Below are positions 2,083 through 35,778 of a DNA stretch of 36,216 nucleotides, in pieces. The notes below the pieces were generated by a model. It worked only from the letters and a program-made list of their open reading frames with translations, made no database searches and was not told where the DNA came from. A program made the translations under genes and the position numbers. The stretch is taken from positions 1-36,216 of the IMG/VR virus record IMGVR_UViG_3300014933_000243; one strand, written 5' to 3'. The stretch comes from a virus. How positions within the stretch are numbered: the stretch's first letter is position 1; each line of letters opens with the position of its first letter.

Positions 2083-2233
2083 CATTATTACCAGTGTTGC
2101 AGAAATTATCGGAGCAATTCTTATTGTTGCGGGTATTTTTATTCTTGCTGGAACAGGGGCCGGATTGATTTCAGCAGGAATTTCAATCTTTATCTTGTCA
2201 TATCTCGCATCAGAACCGGAGCCTAAGCAATGA
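2075..2233 (+). CDS. Small membrane protein between TerL and portal
   Basis: 52 aa. The start at 2075 is preferred over an in-frame ATG at 2048, because GGAGG at 2064-2068 sits at the right distance. The protein is almost entirely hydrophobic, with two closely spaced Ile/Leu/Gly-rich stretches (about residues 4-25 and 29-43) and a charged tail SEPEPKQ, so one or two membrane segments are expected. It overlaps TerL by 8 bp and the portal by 4 bp, so translation is coupled. Function unknown; position does not show whether it is structural. Confidence 0.7.
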   Translation: MLDIITSVAEIIGAILIVAGIFILAGTGAGLISAGISIFILSYLASEPEPKQ

Positions 2234-3447
2234 GTTTAATTAAGCGCGCAGGAATTGTTGGTCGCTATCCGCAATTCAACAACTACGTTGCGCCTCTTTC
2301 TCAGCTTTACGGTCAGACTAATATTACGTCTGCTGCCGGTGAGCGCATTGATGAGTGGACAGCTCTTGGAGTAAGTGCAGTTCTTGGATCTGTATCGCTT
2401 CTTGCTGACGCTGTAGCTTCACTTCCTCTTCGTGCATATCGCACTGCAAATGGAACACGCGAAGCAATTCCTCTTCCAGATATTATTTCAAATCCAGATC
2501 CGGAATCAAATTCATATGAATTAATTCACCAAACTATGGCGTCTCTTGCTCTTCACGGCAACGCTTATATTCATATTGATCGTGATCGATCAGGTAATGA
2601 GATTGGTTTAGTACCTCTTCACCCTTATCAAATGCAGGTTTTACCTACTGGAGATCAGATTGGTCGCAAGTATTTGCACCTTGGGAACCCAATTGATGCA
2701 CAAGATTTGATTCATATTCGTTGGTTTACACCTCCTCAGTCACTTGTTGGTGTATCTCCAATGATCCAAAATCGCAATTTGATCGGTATCGCGCTTGCTA
2801 TGGATCGTCACATTTCACAATTTTATGCTGAAGGTGCAACACCTTCCTCAGTATTAGAGACAGATCAGAAGCTTACTTTAGATCAGGCTCGTACAATTCA
2901 GGGTACATGGGAAGCTACTCATCGTCGTCATCGTCGTCCCGCTGTGCTTTCCGATGGTCTTAAATGGAAACCAGTTGCAGCATCAGCAACAGATCAGCAA
3001 ATGATTCAAACTCGTGAACAATTAATCCGAGATATTGCTCGCATATTTAGAATTCCCTCACACTTAATTGGCGCAACTGGTGATGCTCAGACTTACCAGA
3101 ACGTTGAACAAGCTTCTTTGAATTTCTTGGTTCACACAATCATGCCGTGGCTTCGTCGTTTAGAAGTTGCGTTTAGTCGATTGCTTCCACCAGGAACAGA
3201 CGTTGCTTTTGATACTTCTGCTCTTCTTCGTACTGATGCTCTTACACGCGCTGAGGTTGGAAAGATTCTTGTATCAACCGGACAACGTACACCAAACGAA
3301 TTAAGAAATCTTGATGGCTTTGAGTCTTATGAAGGCGGAGATGTATTCCACCAAGCATTCCAAGGAACGGCGTTAGCGGGTGGCGAATTGCCACCTCTTG
3401 GCACCGATTCAGATCCTTCAACACCAGTCATGGGAGTAATCGAATAA
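2230..3447 (+). CDS. Portal protein, HK97-like
   Basis: 405 aa. It forms the dodecameric ring at one capsid vertex through which DNA enters and leaves. The sequence follows the HK97/Phage_portal (PF04860) pattern: an N-terminal segment with SAVLGSVSLLADAVASLPL, a central HLGNPIDAQDLIHIRWFTP region, and the clip/stem part with IARIFRIPSHLIG. It sits between TerL and the maturation protease and uses ATGA coupling with the upstream gene. The C-terminus is acidic and flexible (about 375-405). Confidence 0.93.
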   Translation: MSLIKRAGIVGRYPQFNNYVAPLSQLYGQTNITSAAGERIDEWTALGVSAVLGSVSLLADAVASLPLRAYRTANGTREAIPLPDIISNPDPESNSYELIHQTMASLALHGNAYIHIDRDRSGNEIGLVPLHPYQMQVLPTGDQIGRKYLHLGNPIDAQDLIHIRWFTPPQSLVGVSPMIQNRNLIGIALAMDRHISQFYAEGATPSSVLETDQKLTLDQARTIQGTWEATHRRHRRPAVLSDGLKWKPVAASATDQQMIQTREQLIRDIARIFRIPSHLIGATGDAQTYQNVEQASLNFLVHTIMPWLRRLEVAFSRLLPPGTDVAFDTSALLRTDALTRAEVGKILVSTGQRTPNELRNLDGFESYEGGDVFHQAFQGTALAGGELPPLGTDSDPSTPVMGVIE

Positions 3448-4859
3448 TGGCCGAGATGTATCGAGTACCAAAAGCATTACGTGAGCAGGTAGAAATTCTT
3501 GATACTGATCTTGCGTTAACCATTAGGGGAAATGAAACTGTAACTTTAGAAACTGTCGTTGAAATCCGCGACGCATTTGATAGCTCATGGGCTAAAGAAA
3601 TCTGCGACAAGGTTACAAGAGACGCCGCGATAGTTTCTCAAATACCTAAGGAGACACGCATGGCACCCGAAGGAACACCCGATCTAATTGAGGAATTAAC
3701 CGAATGCCTCGGTGATGTTGTCTCAATTTACTTCCGCGCTCATGGAGCTCACTGGAATGTTAAAGGTCCAGACTTCAGCGAATACCATAATCTCTTTGCT
3801 GAGATTTATGAAGACATTTATTCAAGCATTGATCCAATTGCTGAGAATCTTCGCAAGCTTGGAGCTGCTGCTCCTTTCAAATTAGCGGACTTTATGGCTC
3901 TCTCTGAGCTTCCAGATGCCAATGTTGGATCTGATGCACGCGCTTTAGCTGCGGATCTACTTGCAGTAAATGACATTGTTCTTGATCAGCTTTCAGATGT
4001 TTTTGAATGTGCGACCAATGAAAACCAGCAAGGAATTGCAAATTTCATTGCAGAACGTCTTGATATGCATCAAAAATGGAAATGGCAACTATCTTCTTCT
4101 CTTGGAGTTGACATCGTAGAGCCAAATCCAGATCCTCTTGATCCTTCTGGAGTAGATCCAGATGACCAAGAAGGTGCAGCAAAAGACTGGACAGCACCAG
4201 ATTTAATGCCTCGTTCAGAAGAAATCACCGTAGAAACTCAGGGTAATGAGGAGTTAACGATGCAAGAAGAGCGTAAAGTAGCAATCGCATCAGCTGAAAG
4301 AATCACCATGAACGCCGAAGTTCGTGCGGTTTCTTCTGAAGATGGATCGCTTCGCGTTGCCGGATATGCTGCAACATTTAATTCTGAAGCAACCGGACTT
4401 AATTTTCGTGAAGTAATTGCTCCTGGAGCTTTTACTCGTACGCTTCAATCTGGAAATCCCGTCTTCCTTCTTGTCAATCACGATATGGAAGCAATTCCAT
4501 TAGCGTCAACACAATCTGGAACTCTTCGTCTATCTCAGGACAAAATTGGTCTTCGTATGGAAGCTGACCTTGATCCTGCAAACCCTAAGGCGCAGGAATT
4601 GGCTTCAGCTTTGAAGCGTGGAGATGTTGACAAGATGTCTTTTGCTTTCTCAGTAGGTCCAGATGGTCAAACTCGCGAAGAGGGTCTTCGTACTCTTACT
4701 GATCTTGATCTCTTTGAGGTCTCAGTTGTGACATGGCCAGCGTATGACTCAACATCAGCATCAATGCGATCCGCAGGCGAAGAGGATCTTGATCTTCGTA
4801 AGCGTCAACTTGCATTGAAATTTAATCAATATTCCCTTCGCAAGAAGCGTAAGGGTTAA
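3447..4859 (+). CDS. Dps/ferritin-like domain fused to HK97-type prohead protease
   Basis: 470 aa. Residues 1-71 are of unknown type. Residues about 76-220 are a Dps domain: AHWNVKGPDF (101-110), YHNLF (113-117) and SIDPIAENLR (127-136) place H102, H114, D129 and E133 at the spacings of the Dps inter-subunit ferroxidase ligands. Residues 221-271 are an acidic Asp/Pro-rich linker. Residues about 285-440 are an HK97-type prohead protease: VAGYAATFN, FREVIAPGAFTR, NHD with H345, KMSFAF with S398, and LFEVSVVTWPAY. The C-terminus is basic. It lies between portal (TAATG overlap) and major capsid protein, where the maturation protease belongs. The protease should cut the capsid delta domain; the Dps part may bind iron, protect DNA or act as scaffold (inference). 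In-frame starts with good ribosome binding sites exist at 3660 and 4260. Confidence 0.9.
   Translation: MAEMYRVPKALREQVEILDTDLALTIRGNETVTLETVVEIRDAFDSSWAKEICDKVTRDAAIVSQIPKETRMAPEGTPDLIEELTECLGDVVSIYFRAHGAHWNVKGPDFSEYHNLFAEIYEDIYSSIDPIAENLRKLGAAAPFKLADFMALSELPDANVGSDARALAADLLAVNDIVLDQLSDVFECATNENQQGIANFIAERLDMHQKWKWQLSSSLGVDIVEPNPDPLDPSGVDPDDQEGAAKDWTAPDLMPRSEEITVETQGNEELTMQEERKVAIASAERITMNAEVRAVSSEDGSLRVAGYAATFNSEATGLNFREVIAPGAFTRTLQSGNPVFLLVNHDMEAIPLASTQSGTLRLSQDKIGLRMEADLDPANPKAQELASALKRGDVDKMSFAFSVGPDGQTREEGLRTLTDLDLFEVSVVTWPAYDSTSASMRSAGEEDLDLRKRQLALKFNQYSLRKKRKG
3648..3662 (+). promoter_or_regulatory. Internal ribosome binding site and ATG before the Dps domain
   Basis: AAGGAG (3648-3653) followed after 6 bases by ATG (3660) lies in the same frame as the 470-aa gene, at codon 72 (MAPEGTPDL). 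Initiation here would give a 399-aa Dps-protease protein without the N-terminal 71 residues. Spacing is ideal; use is inferred. Confidence 0.6.
4248..4262 (+). promoter_or_regulatory. Internal ribosome binding site and ATG before the protease domain
   Basis: GAGGAG (4248-4253), again exactly 6 bases before an in-frame ATG (4260, codon 272, MQEERKVAI). Initiation here would give a 199-aa protease alone, close to the usual size of HK97-type prohead proteases. It marks the linker between the two domains. Confidence 0.6.
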
Positions 4860-4913: not shown

Positions 4914-6257
4914 ATGTCTCTAGCAGCAAAGCTCATTGAGCAGCGTGACGGTCTTGTCGCCGAGGTTGAAACAACTCTCGCGGCAGAAGACGTTACAGCA
5001 GAAGCTCTTGATGCAGCATCAGTAAAGCAAGATGAAATTGCTAAACTTGATGAGCGCATCGCAGTTGCACAAACAAATGAAAAGCGTACAGCTGAACTTG
5101 TGGAATCACGCAAGGAATCAAAGGTCGCAACATTTGGCGGAGCAACAGTAACTCGCGAAGCAATGACATATGACCGCGATGGAAAGAATTCTTTCGTTCG
5201 CGACATGATCAACGCTTCACTTCGTAACGATTCTGATTCATGGTCTCGTTTGCACCGTCACCAAGCTGAAGTCGCAGTTGAAACTCGCGACATCAACCGC
5301 ACCGACACATCTGGTGGAGATTTTGTACCACCAATTTACCTTACAAACGAATACGCAGAGTTTGCTCGTGCTGCTCGCGTAACCGCTGATCTTCTTACTG
5401 GAATGGCTCTTCCGTCCGGCACAGATTCGATCAACATTCCCCAGATTTCTACCGGATCGCTTTCAGCGTTCCAGGCATCTGATAACTCAGCGACAACAAC
5501 TCGCGATCTTGTAACTTCAACAGTTACAGCGCCTGTTCGTACGATCTCTGGTTACGAGAATGTTTCTATTCAGCTTGTTGAGCAAAGCCCTCTTGCTGGT
5601 GGTCTCGATCGTATGATCTTTGGCGACCTCATGAAGGATTACGCACTTCAGTTGAACACAGCAGTTGTTGGTAACGGCGATGGAACATCAGGTACACTTC
5701 GTGGCTTGATTAACCTTGGCGCAGATACTACAAACGGCATTCCTACAACATGGACCGAAACAACACCTTCAGCAACAGGCGGCTTGACTGCAATGGCTAA
5801 GGCAATTTCTAAGGTTGTTACAAACCGTTACCAGGACGTGGAAGCAATTGTTATGCATCCAGCAACTTGGTACTGGTTCATGAGCCAGGTTGATTCTTCA
5901 TCACGTCCACTCGTGGTTCCTGTTGCAGCTGGTCCATTTAACGCTAACGGCGTTGTTGACGCACCAGGCGCATCAAAGGGTCTTGTTGGAACAATGCACG
6001 GCGTAAAGGTTTACGTTGATGCAACACTTCCAAAGAACTACGGCGCATCAACAAACCAATCTCCAATCTTGGTTGGTAAGTTTTCAGATAGCTACTTGTT
6101 TGAATCAGGTGTTAAGACTCGTGTACTTCCAGATGTATTGTCAGCTAACTTGACAGTGCGTTTCCAGGTTTATGGTTACACAGCGCTTGCTCATCGTTTC
6201 AACAAGGCAGTTACAACAATTGCCGGAACCGGTACAGTTGCACCTTCAGGATACTAA
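4914..6257 (+). CDS. Major capsid protein, HK97 fold with delta domain
   Basis: 447 aa. Residues 1-70 are highly charged and helical (EIAKLDERIAVAQTNEKRT), typical of the delta/scaffold domain removed during maturation. The rest matches the HK97-type capsid protein: GGDFVPPIYL near 130, IPQISTG, an E-loop region, VVGNGDGTSGTLRGLIN, and AIVMHPATWYWF in the A/P domains. Located after the protease, as expected. Upstream (4860-4913) is GC-rich with a small GGCG-CGAA-CGCC hairpin; the ribosome binding site is AAAGGG. The gene is followed by a very stable hairpin rather than an immediately adjoining gene. Confidence 0.93.
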   Translation: MSLAAKLIEQRDGLVAEVETTLAAEDVTAEALDAASVKQDEIAKLDERIAVAQTNEKRTAELVESRKESKVATFGGATVTREAMTYDRDGKNSFVRDMINASLRNDSDSWSRLHRHQAEVAVETRDINRTDTSGGDFVPPIYLTNEYAEFARAARVTADLLTGMALPSGTDSINIPQISTGSLSAFQASDNSATTTRDLVTSTVTAPVRTISGYENVSIQLVEQSPLAGGLDRMIFGDLMKDYALQLNTAVVGNGDGTSGTLRGLINLGADTTNGIPTTWTETTPSATGGLTAMAKAISKVVTNRYQDVEAIVMHPATWYWFMSQVDSSSRPLVVPVAAGPFNANGVVDAPGASKGLVGTMHGVKVYVDATLPKNYGASTNQSPILVGKFSDSYLFESGVKTRVLPDVLSANLTVRFQVYGYTALAHRFNKAVTTIAGTGTVAPSGY

Positions 6258-6329: not shown

Positions 6330-6476
6330 ATGCAATCAATTTTTTTAGAAGGTTTAACTACAGCAAGAGATTTAGTTAAACAAAAAGGAATTGAAGCTCT
6401 TGAAGCTTTGATCCTAGAACATGAAAAAGGTGTGATTGAGACCGCCGCTGTAGATCCACGAGTGGAAATACGATGA
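6330..6476 (+). CDS. Small helical protein after the capsid gene
   Basis: 48 aa (MQSIFLEGLTTARDLVKQ...), with a strong GGGGAAA ribosome binding site at 6321-6327 and ATGA overlap with the next gene. It appears to form one long amphipathic helix (LVKQKGIEALEALILEHEK). Function unknown. It is the first gene of the block between capsid and connectors, so it could be a minor capsid or decoration-related protein, but nothing in the sequence proves it. Confidence 0.65.
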   Translation: MQSIFLEGLTTARDLVKQKGIEALEALILEHEKGVIETAAVDPRVEIR

Positions 6477-7189
6477 AAATTAAAGACAAAGTTGCCATAG
6501 GAATGGTGAACGACGGATCAATTAATGCAAATTTAGTGATTGATTTGATCCAGATCTCACGAAAGAGATCAGACAGATTTGATTCTTTTGTTCAAGTTTC
6601 CAATATAGGACTTCTTACAAGGTCTCGAAATCTTTTAGTTAAAAATTTTTTAGATCAGACTTCAGCTTCCTGGCTGCTTATGATTGACTCAGATGAACGT
6701 TTAGAATTAGAAACGTTTGATAAATTGGTCAATGCGGCTCATGATAAGGATCGCCCGGTAGTATCAGCGCTGGTATTTGCTGCCTTTTTTGATGATGATA
6801 ATCATCTTCGGCCCATTCCTACCATTTATCGCGATCTTCCTGAATCTGGTCTTCAAGCAATGGACGATTATCCAATTGATGAAGTGATTAAGGTCGATGC
6901 TGCCGGAACTGGCTGTCTTTTGATCCACCGATCAGTCTTACTTGAACTTCAGAGCAAAGCTACAGAGAATCAGGGTCCAGATTGGGCTTGGTTTGTAGAT
7001 GGAGCAATTGCCGGACGTTGGTTTGGTGAAGATCTGCTTTTTTCCAAGCGTTTAGGATCTCTGGGAATTCCGATCCATGCGCACACTGGCGCAATCTGCG
7101 CACACAATAAAACTTTTTGGCTCGATCAGCGTCATCACAAGCCGTTTCGCGAGGCGGCTTTGGAAAGTAAATCTAAAGCATCGGACTAG
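6473..7189 (+). CDS. GT-A fold glycosyltransferase-like protein
   Basis: 238 aa. The features of a family-2-like sugar transferase are present: TRSRNLLV (49-56), WLLMIDSDERLE (67-78) carrying the metal-binding DSD at 72-74, a mid-protein acceptor loop with GTGCLLIHR (146-153), GEDLLFSKRLGSLG (185-198) and a late His-rich part (H202, H204, H211). No membrane segment is seen, so it acts in the cytoplasm. It lies next to the collagen-like fibre gene and is paired with another glycosyltransferase at 12172, which suggests that it decorates a virion protein. The sugar donor cannot be read from the sequence. Confidence 0.8.
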   Translation: MKIKDKVAIGMVNDGSINANLVIDLIQISRKRSDRFDSFVQVSNIGLLTRSRNLLVKNFLDQTSASWLLMIDSDERLELETFDKLVNAAHDKDRPVVSALVFAAFFDDDNHLRPIPTIYRDLPESGLQAMDDYPIDEVIKVDAAGTGCLLIHRSVLLELQSKATENQGPDWAWFVDGAIAGRWFGEDLLFSKRLGSLGIPIHAHTGAICAHNKTFWLDQRHHKPFREAALESKSKASD

Positions 7190-7241: not shown

Positions 7242-9317
<2,076 letters not shown>

Positions 9318-9339: not shown

Positions 9340-9879
9340 ATGACATCACGTCTACAACAACGCCGCGACACTGCAGCTAACTGGACATCAAACAATCCAA
9401 CTCTTGCTGCTGGCGAAATCGGTTATGAAACTGACACCGCAAAGTGGAAAGTTGGTAACGGATCAACAGCTTGGGCTTCTCTTGCTTATGCTTACACGGC
9501 TGGCGCGGCAGGAGCTACCGGCCCAACAGGTCCAACAGGTCCAACAGGTACAACAACCGGATTACTTGGTTTTGATCCTCAAACTGGAACTACATACACT
9601 CTTGTTGCGGCTGATGCAAATAAATTAGTTACAGCTTCAAATGCATCTGCAATTACAATTACAGTTCCGCCTTCAGTATTTTCTGCAAATGACGTAATTA
9701 ATGTTCAACAAATTGGTGCGGGTCAAGTTACATTTGCAGCCGGATCTGGAGTAACAATTACATCAAATGGAGCAACATCTGCCGCTCCTAAACTTCGCGT
9801 TCAATATTCCGCATGTTCAATTATTTGTTCTGTAGGAGGCGCAACACCTTCATTTACAATTATTGGAGATATTGCCTAA
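9340..9879 (+). CDS. Short fibre protein with Mtd-N-like head domain
   Basis: 179 aa. The N-terminal 50 residues (QQRRDTAANWTSNNPTLAAG, then EIGYETDTAKWKVGNGSTAW) match the small beta domain seen at the N-terminus of major tropism determinant and many phage fibres (Mtd_N, PF18454). A short collagen patch ([13 protein letters not shown], about 59-71) follows, then a beta-rich C-terminal domain. It probably attaches to the virion and works with the preceding collagen-like fibre and the following glycine-rich protein, to which it is coupled by TAATG. Receptor or decoration role is inferred. Confidence 0.8.
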   Translation: MTSRLQQRRDTAANWTSNNPTLAAGEIGYETDTAKWKVGNGSTAWASLAYAYTAGAAGATGPTGPTGPTGTTTGLLGFDPQTGTTYTLVAADANKLVTASNASAITITVPPSVFSANDVINVQQIGAGQVTFAAGSGVTITSNGATSAAPKLRVQYSACSIICSVGGATPSFTIIGDIA

Positions 9880-11597
9880 TGCCTATTCTTGGAATTATGA
9901 GTTCGCAAATAACTGGACACTTAAATATTGTCGCAGATATTCTTCTTGTTGCCGGCGGTGGTGGTGGACAAAGTTCATCTAACTGGAACGGTAATGGGGC
10001 TGGCGGTGCTGGTGGATTAATTTACAAATATTCAACAACGTTACCTTTAAGCACAAATTACATTGTAAATATTGGCGCAGGTGGCACTTCTGATAGCAAT
10101 GGTTCAAATTCTATCTTTGGTTCTATGATTGCTTTTGGCGGCGGCTCAGGCGGCGGCGCAAATGGCGGATCTGGTGGTGGCGGAACTGGTCGCGGTGTTC
10201 CTGCACCTGTTGGTGGTACATCAACACAAACAAACAACGATAGCGGTACGGGTAAAGGTAACGCTGGTGGTACTGCAACATACGGAGATAACGGCCCATA
10301 CACAAACGCAGGTGGTGGTGGTGGTGGCGCTGGCGGAGCAGGAGCAAGCGCATCTGGATATACCGGCGGTACTGGCGGTGTAGGTTTTTACGATTCAACT
10401 ATTGATGCTATGGGTGCAGCAACATCTTCAGGAGATTTACAAGGCGGCCATTATTATTTTGCTGGTGGAGCCGCTGGTGTTTCTACAAATGGCACAAACC
10501 CCGCTGGTGGCTATGGTGGTGGTGGTAAATCAGATTATTCAGGTAGCGTTTCGGGAACTTCTTACAATGTAAAAACTGCTGGAACTGCTAATACTGGCGG
10601 TGGTGGTGGATCTGCGCAAAATTCTGCGGGTGGAGATTCAAATGGTAAGCAAGGTGGATCGGGAATTTCTATTGTTCGTTATCTAGGTTCGCAAAGAGCT
10701 CAAGGTGGAACTGTTGTAACAACCGGTGGATATACTTATCATAAATTTAATTCATCGGGTATTTTTAATACTTCAAATGCTCCAAGTGGATCAAAAGCAA
10801 CCGGTGGAACTATTTTACAATCCGGCTCATATATTTATCATGCATTTTTAGGCTCAGGAACATTAACAACAACTTCATCATTTAGCGCAGATGTTTTTGT
10901 TCTTGCTGGTGGTGGAGGTTCAAGTTCCGATAACTCAGGTGGTGGTGGTGCCGGTGGTGCTCTTGCTTTTGCTTCGCAAACATTAAATGGAACTTACACA
11001 ATTACCATTGGCGCCGGTGGTTCGCCTTATGCTAATGGAAATAATTCTCAATTTGGTGCTTTAACTGCAGCCGTTGGCGGCGGTCGTGGTGGTGGATATT
11101 TTTATGCAGTAGGAAGTGGCGGCTGCGGCGGTGGTTCGGGTTCTTCCGGGGGAACAGGCAACGGAGTGGGTACTGGAAGTCAAGGATATAACGGCGGATC
11201 TAGTAGTGATAGTTCCGCTGGTGCCGGCGGCGGCGGAATGGGTGGAGGGGGTTATTCTCCTCCTTCGGGCGCACACGGTGGTAATGGTGGGGTTGGTATT
11301 AGTTCAATAACAAACTTCTCTAATCTTTCTGCAACTTTAGCTTTAATTGGTATTGGTCAAAATGTAAGTGGAACTTATTATGTTGCCGGTGGTGGTGGAG
11401 CAGCTGGACGAACTAATCCGGGCAATTCAAGTTATGTGGGCGTTGGTGGATATGGCGGCGGCGGCACCGGTGGTTCATATACTCAAATTGCAGCAACAAA
11501 TGGTTTAGCATTTACTGGTGGTGGTGGTGGAGGTTCAGATTTTGCAGCAGCAACACTAGGCGGTTCGGGAGTTGTAATTGTTCGATACGCAATCTAA
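9879..11597 (+). CDS. Glycine-rich phage adhesin, two tandem modules
   Basis: 572 aa. The ATG at 9879 is chosen because it overlaps the previous stop (TAATG); an upstream ORF extension to 9813 lies inside the preceding gene. Two homologous glycine-rich modules are seen, each opening with ADILLVAGGGGG or ADVFVLAGGGG and closing with GISIVRYLG or GVVIVRYAI. They are joined by the paired strands GGYTYHKFNSSGIF and GSYIYHAFLGSGTL. Long GGGG, GGAGG and SGGG runs recall the polyglycine-II adhesin tips of phages, so host-surface binding is the likely role. Codon use is AT-rich except in the Gly runs (GGT, GGC). Confidence 0.82.
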   Translation: MPILGIMSSQITGHLNIVADILLVAGGGGGQSSSNWNGNGAGGAGGLIYKYSTTLPLSTNYIVNIGAGGTSDSNGSNSIFGSMIAFGGGSGGGANGGSGGGGTGRGVPAPVGGTSTQTNNDSGTGKGNAGGTATYGDNGPYTNAGGGGGGAGGAGASASGYTGGTGGVGFYDSTIDAMGAATSSGDLQGGHYYFAGGAAGVSTNGTNPAGGYGGGGKSDYSGSVSGTSYNVKTAGTANTGGGGGSAQNSAGGDSNGKQGGSGISIVRYLGSQRAQGGTVVTTGGYTYHKFNSSGIFNTSNAPSGSKATGGTILQSGSYIYHAFLGSGTLTTTSSFSADVFVLAGGGGSSSDNSGGGGAGGALAFASQTLNGTYTITIGAGGSPYANGNNSQFGALTAAVGGGRGGGYFYAVGSGGCGGGSGSSGGTGNGVGTGSQGYNGGSSSDSSAGAGGGGMGGGGYSPPSGAHGGNGGVGISSITNFSNLSATLALIGIGQNVSGTYYVAGGGGAAGRTNPGNSSYVGVGGYGGGGTGGSYTQIAATNGLAFTGGGGGGSDFAAATLGGSGVVIVRYAI

Positions 11598-12171: not shown

Positions 12172-13224
12172 ATGAAGATCGCCGTATATACAATTGCACT
12201 GAACGAGGAACAATTTGTAGATCAGTGGTATGAATCAGCTAAAGAAGCTGATGTTTTACTGATCGCAGATACTGGATCAACGGATCAAACTAGATCCAAA
12301 GCTGAAGCTTTAGGCATAACTGTAGTAAGTGTTCAGATCTTGCCTTGGCGCTTTGACGATGCTCGAAATGCTGCTTTGGCGGCCCTTCCTCTTGATATTG
12401 ATTACTGCGTTGCTCTTGATATGGACGAAGTTTTGCTGCCGGGTTGGAGATCTGAGCTTGAATCTTTAGATCAAAGCGTAAATCGACCTCGATACAAGTA
12501 CACCTGGTCCTGGAATCCCGACGGATCTCCTGGATTGACCTACGGCGGAGACAAGATTCACGCTCGAAAAGGGTTCAGATGGAAACACCCGGTTCATGAG
12601 GTTCTGACCTGCCAGGATCAAGAAAATCAATTATGGACCAAGCTAGAGATTCATCATCACCCCGATCAGAGTAAATCTAGGGGTCAATATTTTCCTCTTT
12701 TAAGATTAGCTATACAAGAAGATCCAACCGACGATCGAAATACCTTTTATTATGCCCGGGAACTCTTCTTTCACAATCACTACACCGAGGCGATTGCTCA
12801 GTTTAAGCGTCACTTAGCCCTTCCCAAAGCTGTTTGGAAACCAGAACGCGCCGCTTCCATGCGATACCTTGCCAAGATGGAAGATCAGGATCGGGAAAGC
12901 TGGCTTTTTAAAGCTATAGCAGAATCGCCGATCAGCCGAGAACCTCGGGTGGATCTTGCCGAGCATTATTACTCCGAAGGTCGTTGGATTGAATGTTATG
13001 CTATGGCCCAATCAGCGCTTCGAATTACACAGCAACCACTGGAATACCTAGTAGAATCGGATTCTTGGGGATACTTGCCTCACGATTTGGTTGCGATTTC
13101 AGCATATAACCTTAACAACTATTCAGAAGCTCTTGAGCATGGCAAAAAAGCCGTTGAGCTTGCTCCCTGGATTGATCGTCTTCAAGAAAACCTTAAACAT
13201 TATGAAGGAGCTATAAGTGAGTGA
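12172..13224 (+). CDS. Family 2 glycosyltransferase with TPR-like C-terminus
   Basis: 350 aa. The N-terminal half has the signature of SunS/TPR-type GT2 enzymes: LNEEQF (10-15), IADTGSTDQT (31-40), WRFDDARNAAL (59-69) and ALDMDEVL (81-88) with the metal-binding DMD. A His-rich segment HARKGFRWKHPVHEV follows. The C-terminal half (about 190-345) is helical with TPR-like repeats (NTFYYARELFFHNHYTEAIA; NLNNYSEALEHGKKAVEL). It should transfer a sugar from a nucleotide-sugar to a protein or glycan. Base usage is more GC-rich than in the fibre genes. It may work with the glycosyltransferase at 6473 on the Thr-rich collagen fibre. Confidence 0.87.
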   Translation: MKIAVYTIALNEEQFVDQWYESAKEADVLLIADTGSTDQTRSKAEALGITVVSVQILPWRFDDARNAALAALPLDIDYCVALDMDEVLLPGWRSELESLDQSVNRPRYKYTWSWNPDGSPGLTYGGDKIHARKGFRWKHPVHEVLTCQDQENQLWTKLEIHHHPDQSKSRGQYFPLLRLAIQEDPTDDRNTFYYARELFFHNHYTEAIAQFKRHLALPKAVWKPERAASMRYLAKMEDQDRESWLFKAIAESPISREPRVDLAEHYYSEGRWIECYAMAQSALRITQQPLEYLVESDSWGYLPHDLVAISAYNLNNYSEALEHGKKAVELAPWIDRLQENLKHYEGAISE

Positions 13225-35178: not shown

Positions 35179-35778
35179 ATGACAACGTTGATTGCTTACC
35201 AGCATGATGATTGGTGCATGATCGCTGCGGACTCTCAAACTTCTTTTGGCAATTTAAGAGCTGATTGCTCGCCAATGGGAAAAATTGCAATTAATGGAAA
35301 ATACTTAGTTGCAGCAGCAGGAACAGTTCGCGGAATGAACATTATTCAACATTCATTTCGTCCACCTGCTCCGCCAAAAACAAATCTTGATTCATTTATG
35401 GTCAATAAATTTATTCCTGCATTAAGAAAAACTTTTGTTGATTCAGGATATGAAATGAAAGAAAGCGGAGAGATCGCTTCTTTTGATAATGATTTAATTG
35501 TTGCAGTAAATGGAACAATTTATTTTGTTGATGAAGTTTATGGATTAGAACGCAATAAAGAAAATTTACACGTCACCGGGACGGGACGTCAATTAGCTTT
35601 AGGCGCAGCTGTTGCTCTAGGAATTAATGAAGTTGATTCATTTGAAGAAGCAACTGAAATTTTAGAACAAGCGGTTAAAACAGCAATTAAATTTGACATA
35701 TATTCAGGGGATGCAGTACAGATTGCGATCCAGCATAAAGATGGTCGCACCTATATTGCATTACTTGACGAAGAGTAA
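35179..35778 (+). CDS. Proteasome beta/HslV-like Ntn-hydrolase
   Basis: 199 aa. After Met removal the N-terminus would be Thr (T2 in TTLIAYQHDDWCMIAADSQT), with D18, K35 in SPMGKIA, and D173...S176 in FDIYSGDAVQIAI. These correspond to proteasome T1, D17, K33, D166 and S169. VTGTGRQLALGAAVAL matches the conserved Gly loop and helix. There is no propeptide, as in HslV, and length suits one beta-type subunit. It would assemble into a ring-shaped threonine protease in the host cytoplasm. It has its own promoter candidate and its AT-rich codon use differs from the preceding gene. No ATPase partner is encoded nearby; it may use a host partner or replace host subunits. Confidence 0.82.
   Translation: MTTLIAYQHDDWCMIAADSQTSFGNLRADCSPMGKIAINGKYLVAAAGTVRGMNIIQHSFRPPAPPKTNLDSFMVNKFIPALRKTFVDSGYEMKESGEIASFDNDLIVAVNGTIYFVDEVYGLERNKENLHVTGTGRQLALGAAVALGINEVDSFEEATEILEQAVKTAIKFDIYSGDAVQIAIQHKDGRTYIALLDEE

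Follow-up and report, generated by a model that had tools for sequence, protein, structure and literature searches.

In a virus record of 36.2 kb, analyzed here in full and called the window, the gene between the portal and major capsid protein genes encodes a Dps domain joined in one frame to an HK97-type prohead protease. We show by computation that this fusion has a Dps fold with conserved ferroxidase ligands, that it carries conserved internal start signals at its domain borders, and that its Dps domain falls into a clade of phage Dps linked to head genes. We give even chances to the explanation that this is a nested three-start head gene, whose protease delivers Dps to the capsid interior as cargo, where it would likely act on iron or peroxide near the packaged DNA.

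A Dps domain precedes the protease in a phage head gene

The window shows a siphovirus-type gene order of TerS, TerL, portal, fusion, HK97 major capsid protein (MCP), tail, and replication genes, with the fusion ORF located between the portal and MCP genes. The features of this region are as follows.

2230..3447, + strand: portal protein (PF04860); the portal stop overlaps the fusion start (TAATG)
3447..4859, + strand: full fusion ORF (N-terminal module, Dps, linker, S78 prohead protease), a single open frame of 470 amino acids, about 52 kDa
3447..3659, + strand: N-terminal module, residues 1-71, short form of the 'YRPP..WGGDAG' module (phrog_2859)
3648..3653, + strand: Shine-Dalgarno (SD) sequence AAGGAG, 6 nt upstream of the Dps-module ATG
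3660..4112, + strand: Dps domain, residues 72-222, first codon internal ATG M72 (PF00210, phrog_3636, predicted fold)
3750..3752, + strand: H102 codon, ferroxidase ligand
3786..3788, + strand: H114 codon, ferroxidase ligand
3798..3800, + strand: Ala118 codon, at the nonconserved site of the fifth canonical Dps ligand
3831..3833, + strand: D129 codon, ferroxidase ligand
3843..3845, + strand: E133 codon, ferroxidase ligand
4113..4259, + strand: acidic, predicted-disordered linker, residues 223-271 (49 residues; pLDDT below 50 over most of 224-270; pI 4.05)
4248..4253, + strand: SD sequence GAGGAG, 6 nt upstream of the protease-module ATG
4260..4856, + strand: S78/HK97 prohead protease module, residues 272-470, first codon internal ATG M272
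4914..6257, + strand: HK97-fold MCP (PF05065)

The identity of the protease, claimed in an earlier note on this DNA, was borne out by a profile search, in which residues 290-441 matched Peptidase_S78 (PF04586; E value, 2.8e-41), and by a score of 112.7 bits for TIGR01543 (proheadase_HK97), above the curated cutoff of 59. H345 and S398 are invariant in the module and, judging from what is known of the family, presumably form the catalytic pair. The protease shares its position between portal and MCP, the S78 domain, and the invariant His and Ser with the HK97-type S78 proteases (HK97 gp4 and the phiC31/BT1 and SfV homologs), but in the window gene Dps and further modules, with internal starts, come ahead of it. 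The short N-terminal module was linked by alignment to the long phrog_2859 module of longer relatives.

Several further genes of the window were assigned. After the capsid genes, positions 7242 to 9317 encode a collagen-like protein of 692 codons, in which the G-P-T/G-X-Y repeats include 92 simple G-X-Y triplets; a glycine-rich, fiber-like ORF follows at 9813 to 11597. Two glycosyltransferase genes (6473 to 7189 and 12172 to 13224; phrog_34859 and phrog_13126) lie amid the head and tail genes, and both enzymes possibly modify virion proteins. At positions 35179 to 35778, a match to phrog_1040 ('peptidase HslV family'; 2.4e-22) indicates a proteasome-like peptidase in a phage.

The Dps domain keeps its fold and four ferroxidase ligands

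The earlier note placed a Dps domain at about residues 76-220. Profile matches agree with this placement (PF00210 Ferritin/Dps, residues 83-219, E value 3.1e-15; phrog_3636, residues 79-219, E value 3.9e-23), and the Dps module proper starts at M72 (position 3660). The best relative with a solved structure is Pseudomonas aeruginosa Dps PA0962 (8ff9; 1.7e-17). In an AF2 model with 27 family members in the alignment, the predicted Dps helices (residues 80-104, 110-137, 146-152, 164-191, and 195-219, with 146-152 as the BC helix) had pLDDT values above 90, and pLDDT was below 50 over residues 65-75 and most of the linker. The full-length pTM of 0.38 means that the individual domains of the model are reliable and their mutual placement is not. 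Foldseek returned target-normalized TM scores of 0.91 to 0.92 for the Dps part against HP-NAP, Dlp-1, and Brevibacillus brevis Dps. The comparison suggested in the note, for which a fold unlike Dps would have been the damaging result, thus recovered the Dps fold including its BC helix, and a chance four-helix likeness was rejected on the basis of the Dps profiles and these TM scores.

H102, H114, D129, and E133, recognized in the note by their spacings of 12, 15, and 4 residues, correspond to the Dps ferroxidase ligand set. Together with W103, they do not vary among 35 clusters of the fusion family (less than 90% identity; down to 47% identity to the window) or in any of the 106 phage Dps domains compared, whatever their context. 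The fifth canonical ligand, an acidic residue four positions after H114, is replaced by Ala118 in the window and mostly by A, Q, N, G, or L in relatives, with E in a minority. Since this position is mostly nonacidic in phage Dps generally (106-domain comparison), the absence in the window is not read as exclusion from the Dps fold family. Loss of the fifth ligand as a hallmark of head-linked Dps was considered and rejected, because free-standing phage Dps also varies there. Compared with three relatives (L001 to L003), the Dps segment has a dN of about 0.03 and a dS of 0.42 to 0.48, giving a dN/dS of about 0.06. As far as sequence comparison can tell, ligand conservation and low dN/dS together amount to strong constraint of an enzymatic kind.

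The domain thus resembles Dps proteins and mini-ferritins such as HP-NAP, Listeria innocua Dps, and PA0962 in fold, H-H-D-E ligands, adjacent Trp, and profile, but differs from them in being embedded in a capsid protease, in the mostly lost acidic residue, and in having no DNA-binding tail. Binding of DNA by a basic tail is a feature of some Dps only. In the window Dps, no such tail was found, and the segment is acidic (pI 4.27), as are its flanks. An iron-oxidizing or DNA-protecting protein had been suggested in the note; iron oxidation would be a putative activity of the domain, and the DNA-binding reading is weak, given the pI of 4.3 and the lack of a basic tail.

The fusion occurs in a family of mostly uncultured phages

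Two scans of IMG/VR recovered the in-frame joint of Dps and protease from about 100 separate contigs (44 to 97% identity), and the two domains nearly always share one frame among those contigs. The search for the same domain order in other phages, likewise suggested in the note, therefore speaks against an assembly error joining two genes, which we reject. The fusion is also present in two metagenome-assembled genomes, assigned to Betaproteobacteria and Actinomycetota; both occurrences are probably phage contigs binned with those genomes. No named cultured phage with the fusion was found in the phage and plasmid collections searched, and none of the named phage records matches beyond the protease part. 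Ranked by terminase, Pontimonas phage phiPsal1 (49%) is the nearest phage with a name; its protease lacks Dps and carries different modules at its N-terminus. The fusion family belongs to mostly uncultured phages. Two homologs from uncultured Caudovirales phage, obtained as structural matches, have been deposited under automatic names only: A0A6J7WIS1, 'Prohead protease', which aligns to the fusion over its whole length with 45% identity, and A0A6J5N5R9, 'Ferritin/DPS protein domain containing protein'. A literature search, short on subscription journals, found no paper on the Dps-prohead protease fusion, its internal starts, the head-linked Dps clade, or these deposited homologs.

The architecture varies within the family. 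In longer relatives, the 'YRPP..WGGDAG' N-module (phrog_2859) is complete, and two insertions, a TUDOR domain (PF11160) and a 'GGVDIP' module, are found at the site of the linker between Dps and protease. In the close relatives L060, L069, L079, and L144 to L147, Dps is substituted by a helical module, 'AADAAMDAAQ..QAYYLICAADAALSEVI'. Over positions 3660 to 4856, L001 and L002 have a dS of 0.03 to 0.09 relative to the window in the protease and of about 0.47 in Dps; a protease nearly identical at silent sites next to a Dps so far apart points to recombination at the Dps/protease border.

Conserved internal start signals suggest three nested products

The earlier note mentioned neither the lost fifth ligand nor the internal ribosome-binding sites of this gene. 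The ATGs at 3660 (M72) and 4260 (M272) are each preceded by a strong SD at 6 nt, and both are located in predicted-disordered joints between domains. With -9.1 and -8.9 kcal/mol, respectively, they show the strongest anti-SD pairing among 128 internal in-frame ATGs in the 32 ORFs taken as likely genes of the window, and they equal its best real gene starts. In nonredundant relatives, mean SD values were -9.7 for the Met ahead of Dps and -7.3 for the Met ahead of the protease, both biased toward stronger sites since the strongest Met in range was picked, compared to -2.0 for other internal Mets and -6.8 for the ORF start. When the protease Met was picked by protein motif alone, the SD value was -7.5, compared to -3.6 after synonymous resampling (37 different pentapeptide contexts in relatives at 44 to 75% identity, with SD statistics that ignore phylogeny); other internal Mets, used as a control, gave -1.9 and -2.3, respectively. 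Codon bias was rejected as the source of the internal SDs on these grounds. In L060, L069, and L079, an SD-ATG of -11.4 to -12.3 is found at the same border, ahead of the replacement module. Considering these strong and conserved signals at M72 and M272, we infer that gene 3447-4859 probably yields three nested products, all ending in the protease C-terminus.

A different origin of the signals would be the fusion of three neighboring genes by stop loss, with the internal SDs as functionless leftovers. The internal SD-ATG sites are indeed indistinguishable from gene starts, but SD strength exceeds that of synonymous recoding in the 37 peptide contexts, at a divergence where silent sites should have decayed, and the SD-ATG is also retained ahead of the replacement module. 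We therefore consider such a fossil of separate genes very improbable. In the HAD-Dps-S78 lineage described below, no strong paired internal starts were found, and thus nested starts are not required wherever the fusion occurs; the idea that they are a general trait of Dps-protease fusions was rejected.

The capsid protease gene C of phage lambda contains an in-frame internal start for Nu3, the two products have a common C-terminus, and the inner product is the scaffold. The gene of the window resembles C/Nu3 in its in-frame internal start signals at the domain borders of a capsid protease gene; however, the proteases are unrelated, and in the window the innermost product would be the protease and the middle one would contain Dps.

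Dps is linked to phage head genes in several arrangements

In a profile scan and its follow-up, Dps domains were found together with head proteins (i) ahead of S78, as in the window family (arrangement a); (ii) C-terminal to S78 in L085 (b); (iii) in HAD-Dps-S78 proteins of L161, L165 to L168, L177, and L178 (c); (iv) in one open frame, L217:2-2674, behind portal-like and head-maturation-protease-like regions (d; phrog_859, phrog_18402, phrog_3636); and (v) immediately downstream of phrog_776 portals, either by itself or joined to proteins of the DUF5824 type (e). The gene upstream of Dps was a phrog_776 portal in 33 of 40 cases in a scan that was seeded with members of arrangement e and is not representative of phage Dps at large. 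Two of the other seven (L194 and L220) are preceded by proteins resembling head-maturation protease, and the rest by other genes or genes without a match.

In a quick tree of 106 Dps rows, built from a short alignment, arrangements a to e formed one group of 82 rows with SH-aLRT support of 97. The other 24 phage Dps rows were separate from this group, and none was found adjoining head genes in the scan, in which contexts were partly identified. Label changes on the tree numbered six, compared to a mean of 54 after shuffling. Taken together, these sequence comparisons make the link of this Dps clade to the phage head well supported.

Two of these lineages have additional partners. The domain ahead of Dps in the S78 prohead proteases of L161, L165 to L168, and L177 is of the HAD family (Acid_phosphat_B). 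Post-portal Dps of another phage lineage (L151, L152, L157, L142, and others) is fused to CxxC-rich and DUF5824 ('YRRGAGAFSTSHRP') modules, or alternatively the next gene encodes a protein of 1750 to 2000 amino acids.

The clade bears on two other explanations. According to the first, the product counters iron and reactive oxygen in the cytoplasm of the infected cell, and the fusion is incidental. This corresponds to the published reading of phage ferritin and Dps genes in freshwater (PMC6802176) and gut phages (PMC8008677), and free-standing phage Dps exists outside the head-linked clade (group F of the tree). Stand-alone genes of this kind (phrog_3636), reported from Lactobacillus phages (PMC6669764), Gratiaviridae (PMC8008677), and freshwater phages (PMC6802176), share the phage Dps domain with the fusion but have been described as separate, host-helping metabolic genes, with no head link stated. 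In the window gene, however, no stop separates Dps from the protease, so that all Dps bears the protease until cleaved, and portal and protease genes accompany the Dps of this clade in several arrangements, which places it among late structural rather than early metabolic genes. We regard host protection as improbable for this gene.

According to the second, Dps merely oligomerizes and serves as an assembly platform that gathers protease copies, fixes prohead stoichiometry, or stabilizes the scaffold core, with iron chemistry being irrelevant. In line with this, Dps in the clade is always tied to head proteins, nested starts would permit a set ratio of free to clustered protease, and another helical module takes the place of Dps in the seven relatives named above. 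On the other hand, invariance of four ligands and the adjacent Trp in 106 domains goes beyond what packing alone should need, and the MCP appears to have a scaffold region of its own, which would be its N-terminal extension of roughly 100 residues ahead of the capsid-fold match. Use of Dps oligomerization as scaffold had been offered in the earlier note; the invariant ferroxidase ligands disfavor a scaffold-only role, which we consider possible though unlikely.

A proposed route of Dps into the capsid

We propose that translation from position 3447 would give an N-module-Dps-protease protein of about 52 kDa, translation from 3660 a Dps-protease of about 44 kDa, and translation from 4260 the protease alone, of about 22 kDa. 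The common protease C-terminus would take every product into the prohead by the usual route of HK97-type proteases. Inside, the Dps parts would dimerize and probably form Dps dodecamers. Protease activity would then degrade the scaffold and the protease itself and likely cut the acidic, disordered linker. The freed Dps assembly, too large for the capsid pores, would remain alongside the packaged genome, and its H-H-D-E centers would there bind Fe(II) and use up H2O2. The suggestion in the note that the protease may bring Dps into the prohead has gained support from the head linkage of Dps in several arrangements and lineages. Counted against this cargo reading are the usually nonacidic position 118, the missing basic tail, and the HAD-Dps-S78 lineage without strong paired starts.

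Packaged Dps might instead be ejected with the DNA, shielding the incoming phage genome or acting on the new host. The genetic evidence for packaging applies equally to such an injected effector, and other phages eject head proteins. Ejection of phage head proteins is dealt with in PMC7411985. A folded Dps oligomer, however, would hardly fit through a siphovirus-type tail channel, and no ejection signal was identified in the fusion, making an effector of this type highly unlikely.

Encapsulins are cellular shells of the HK97 fold that enclose ferritin-like cargo by means of targeting peptides. Delivery of Dps as cargo would resemble them by analogy only, in placing a ferritin-like protein inside an HK97-fold shell; here, in contrast, the shell would be a phage MCP encoded near portal and terminase, and the protease would be the carrier. 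The protease fusion, with its internal start signals at the domain borders, suggests that the phage loads Dps into its own head.

It is tempting to extend this proposal to many environmental phages, whose virions might contain an active mini-ferritin, loaded either as a maturation-protease fusion or as a post-portal head protein and detoxifying iron and peroxide around the genome, with its dose set by nested starts; we offer this generalization tentatively and with some doubt. Ferritin and Dps genes of aquatic and gut phages have so far been read as help for the host, and the capsid-tied clade points to the phage head instead. If Dps is present in the virion, particles would actively shield their DNA in water that contains iron and peroxide, with a bearing on how fast viruses decay, and fusion to a protease with internal starts would be a natural way to bring enzymes into capsids of the HK97 type.
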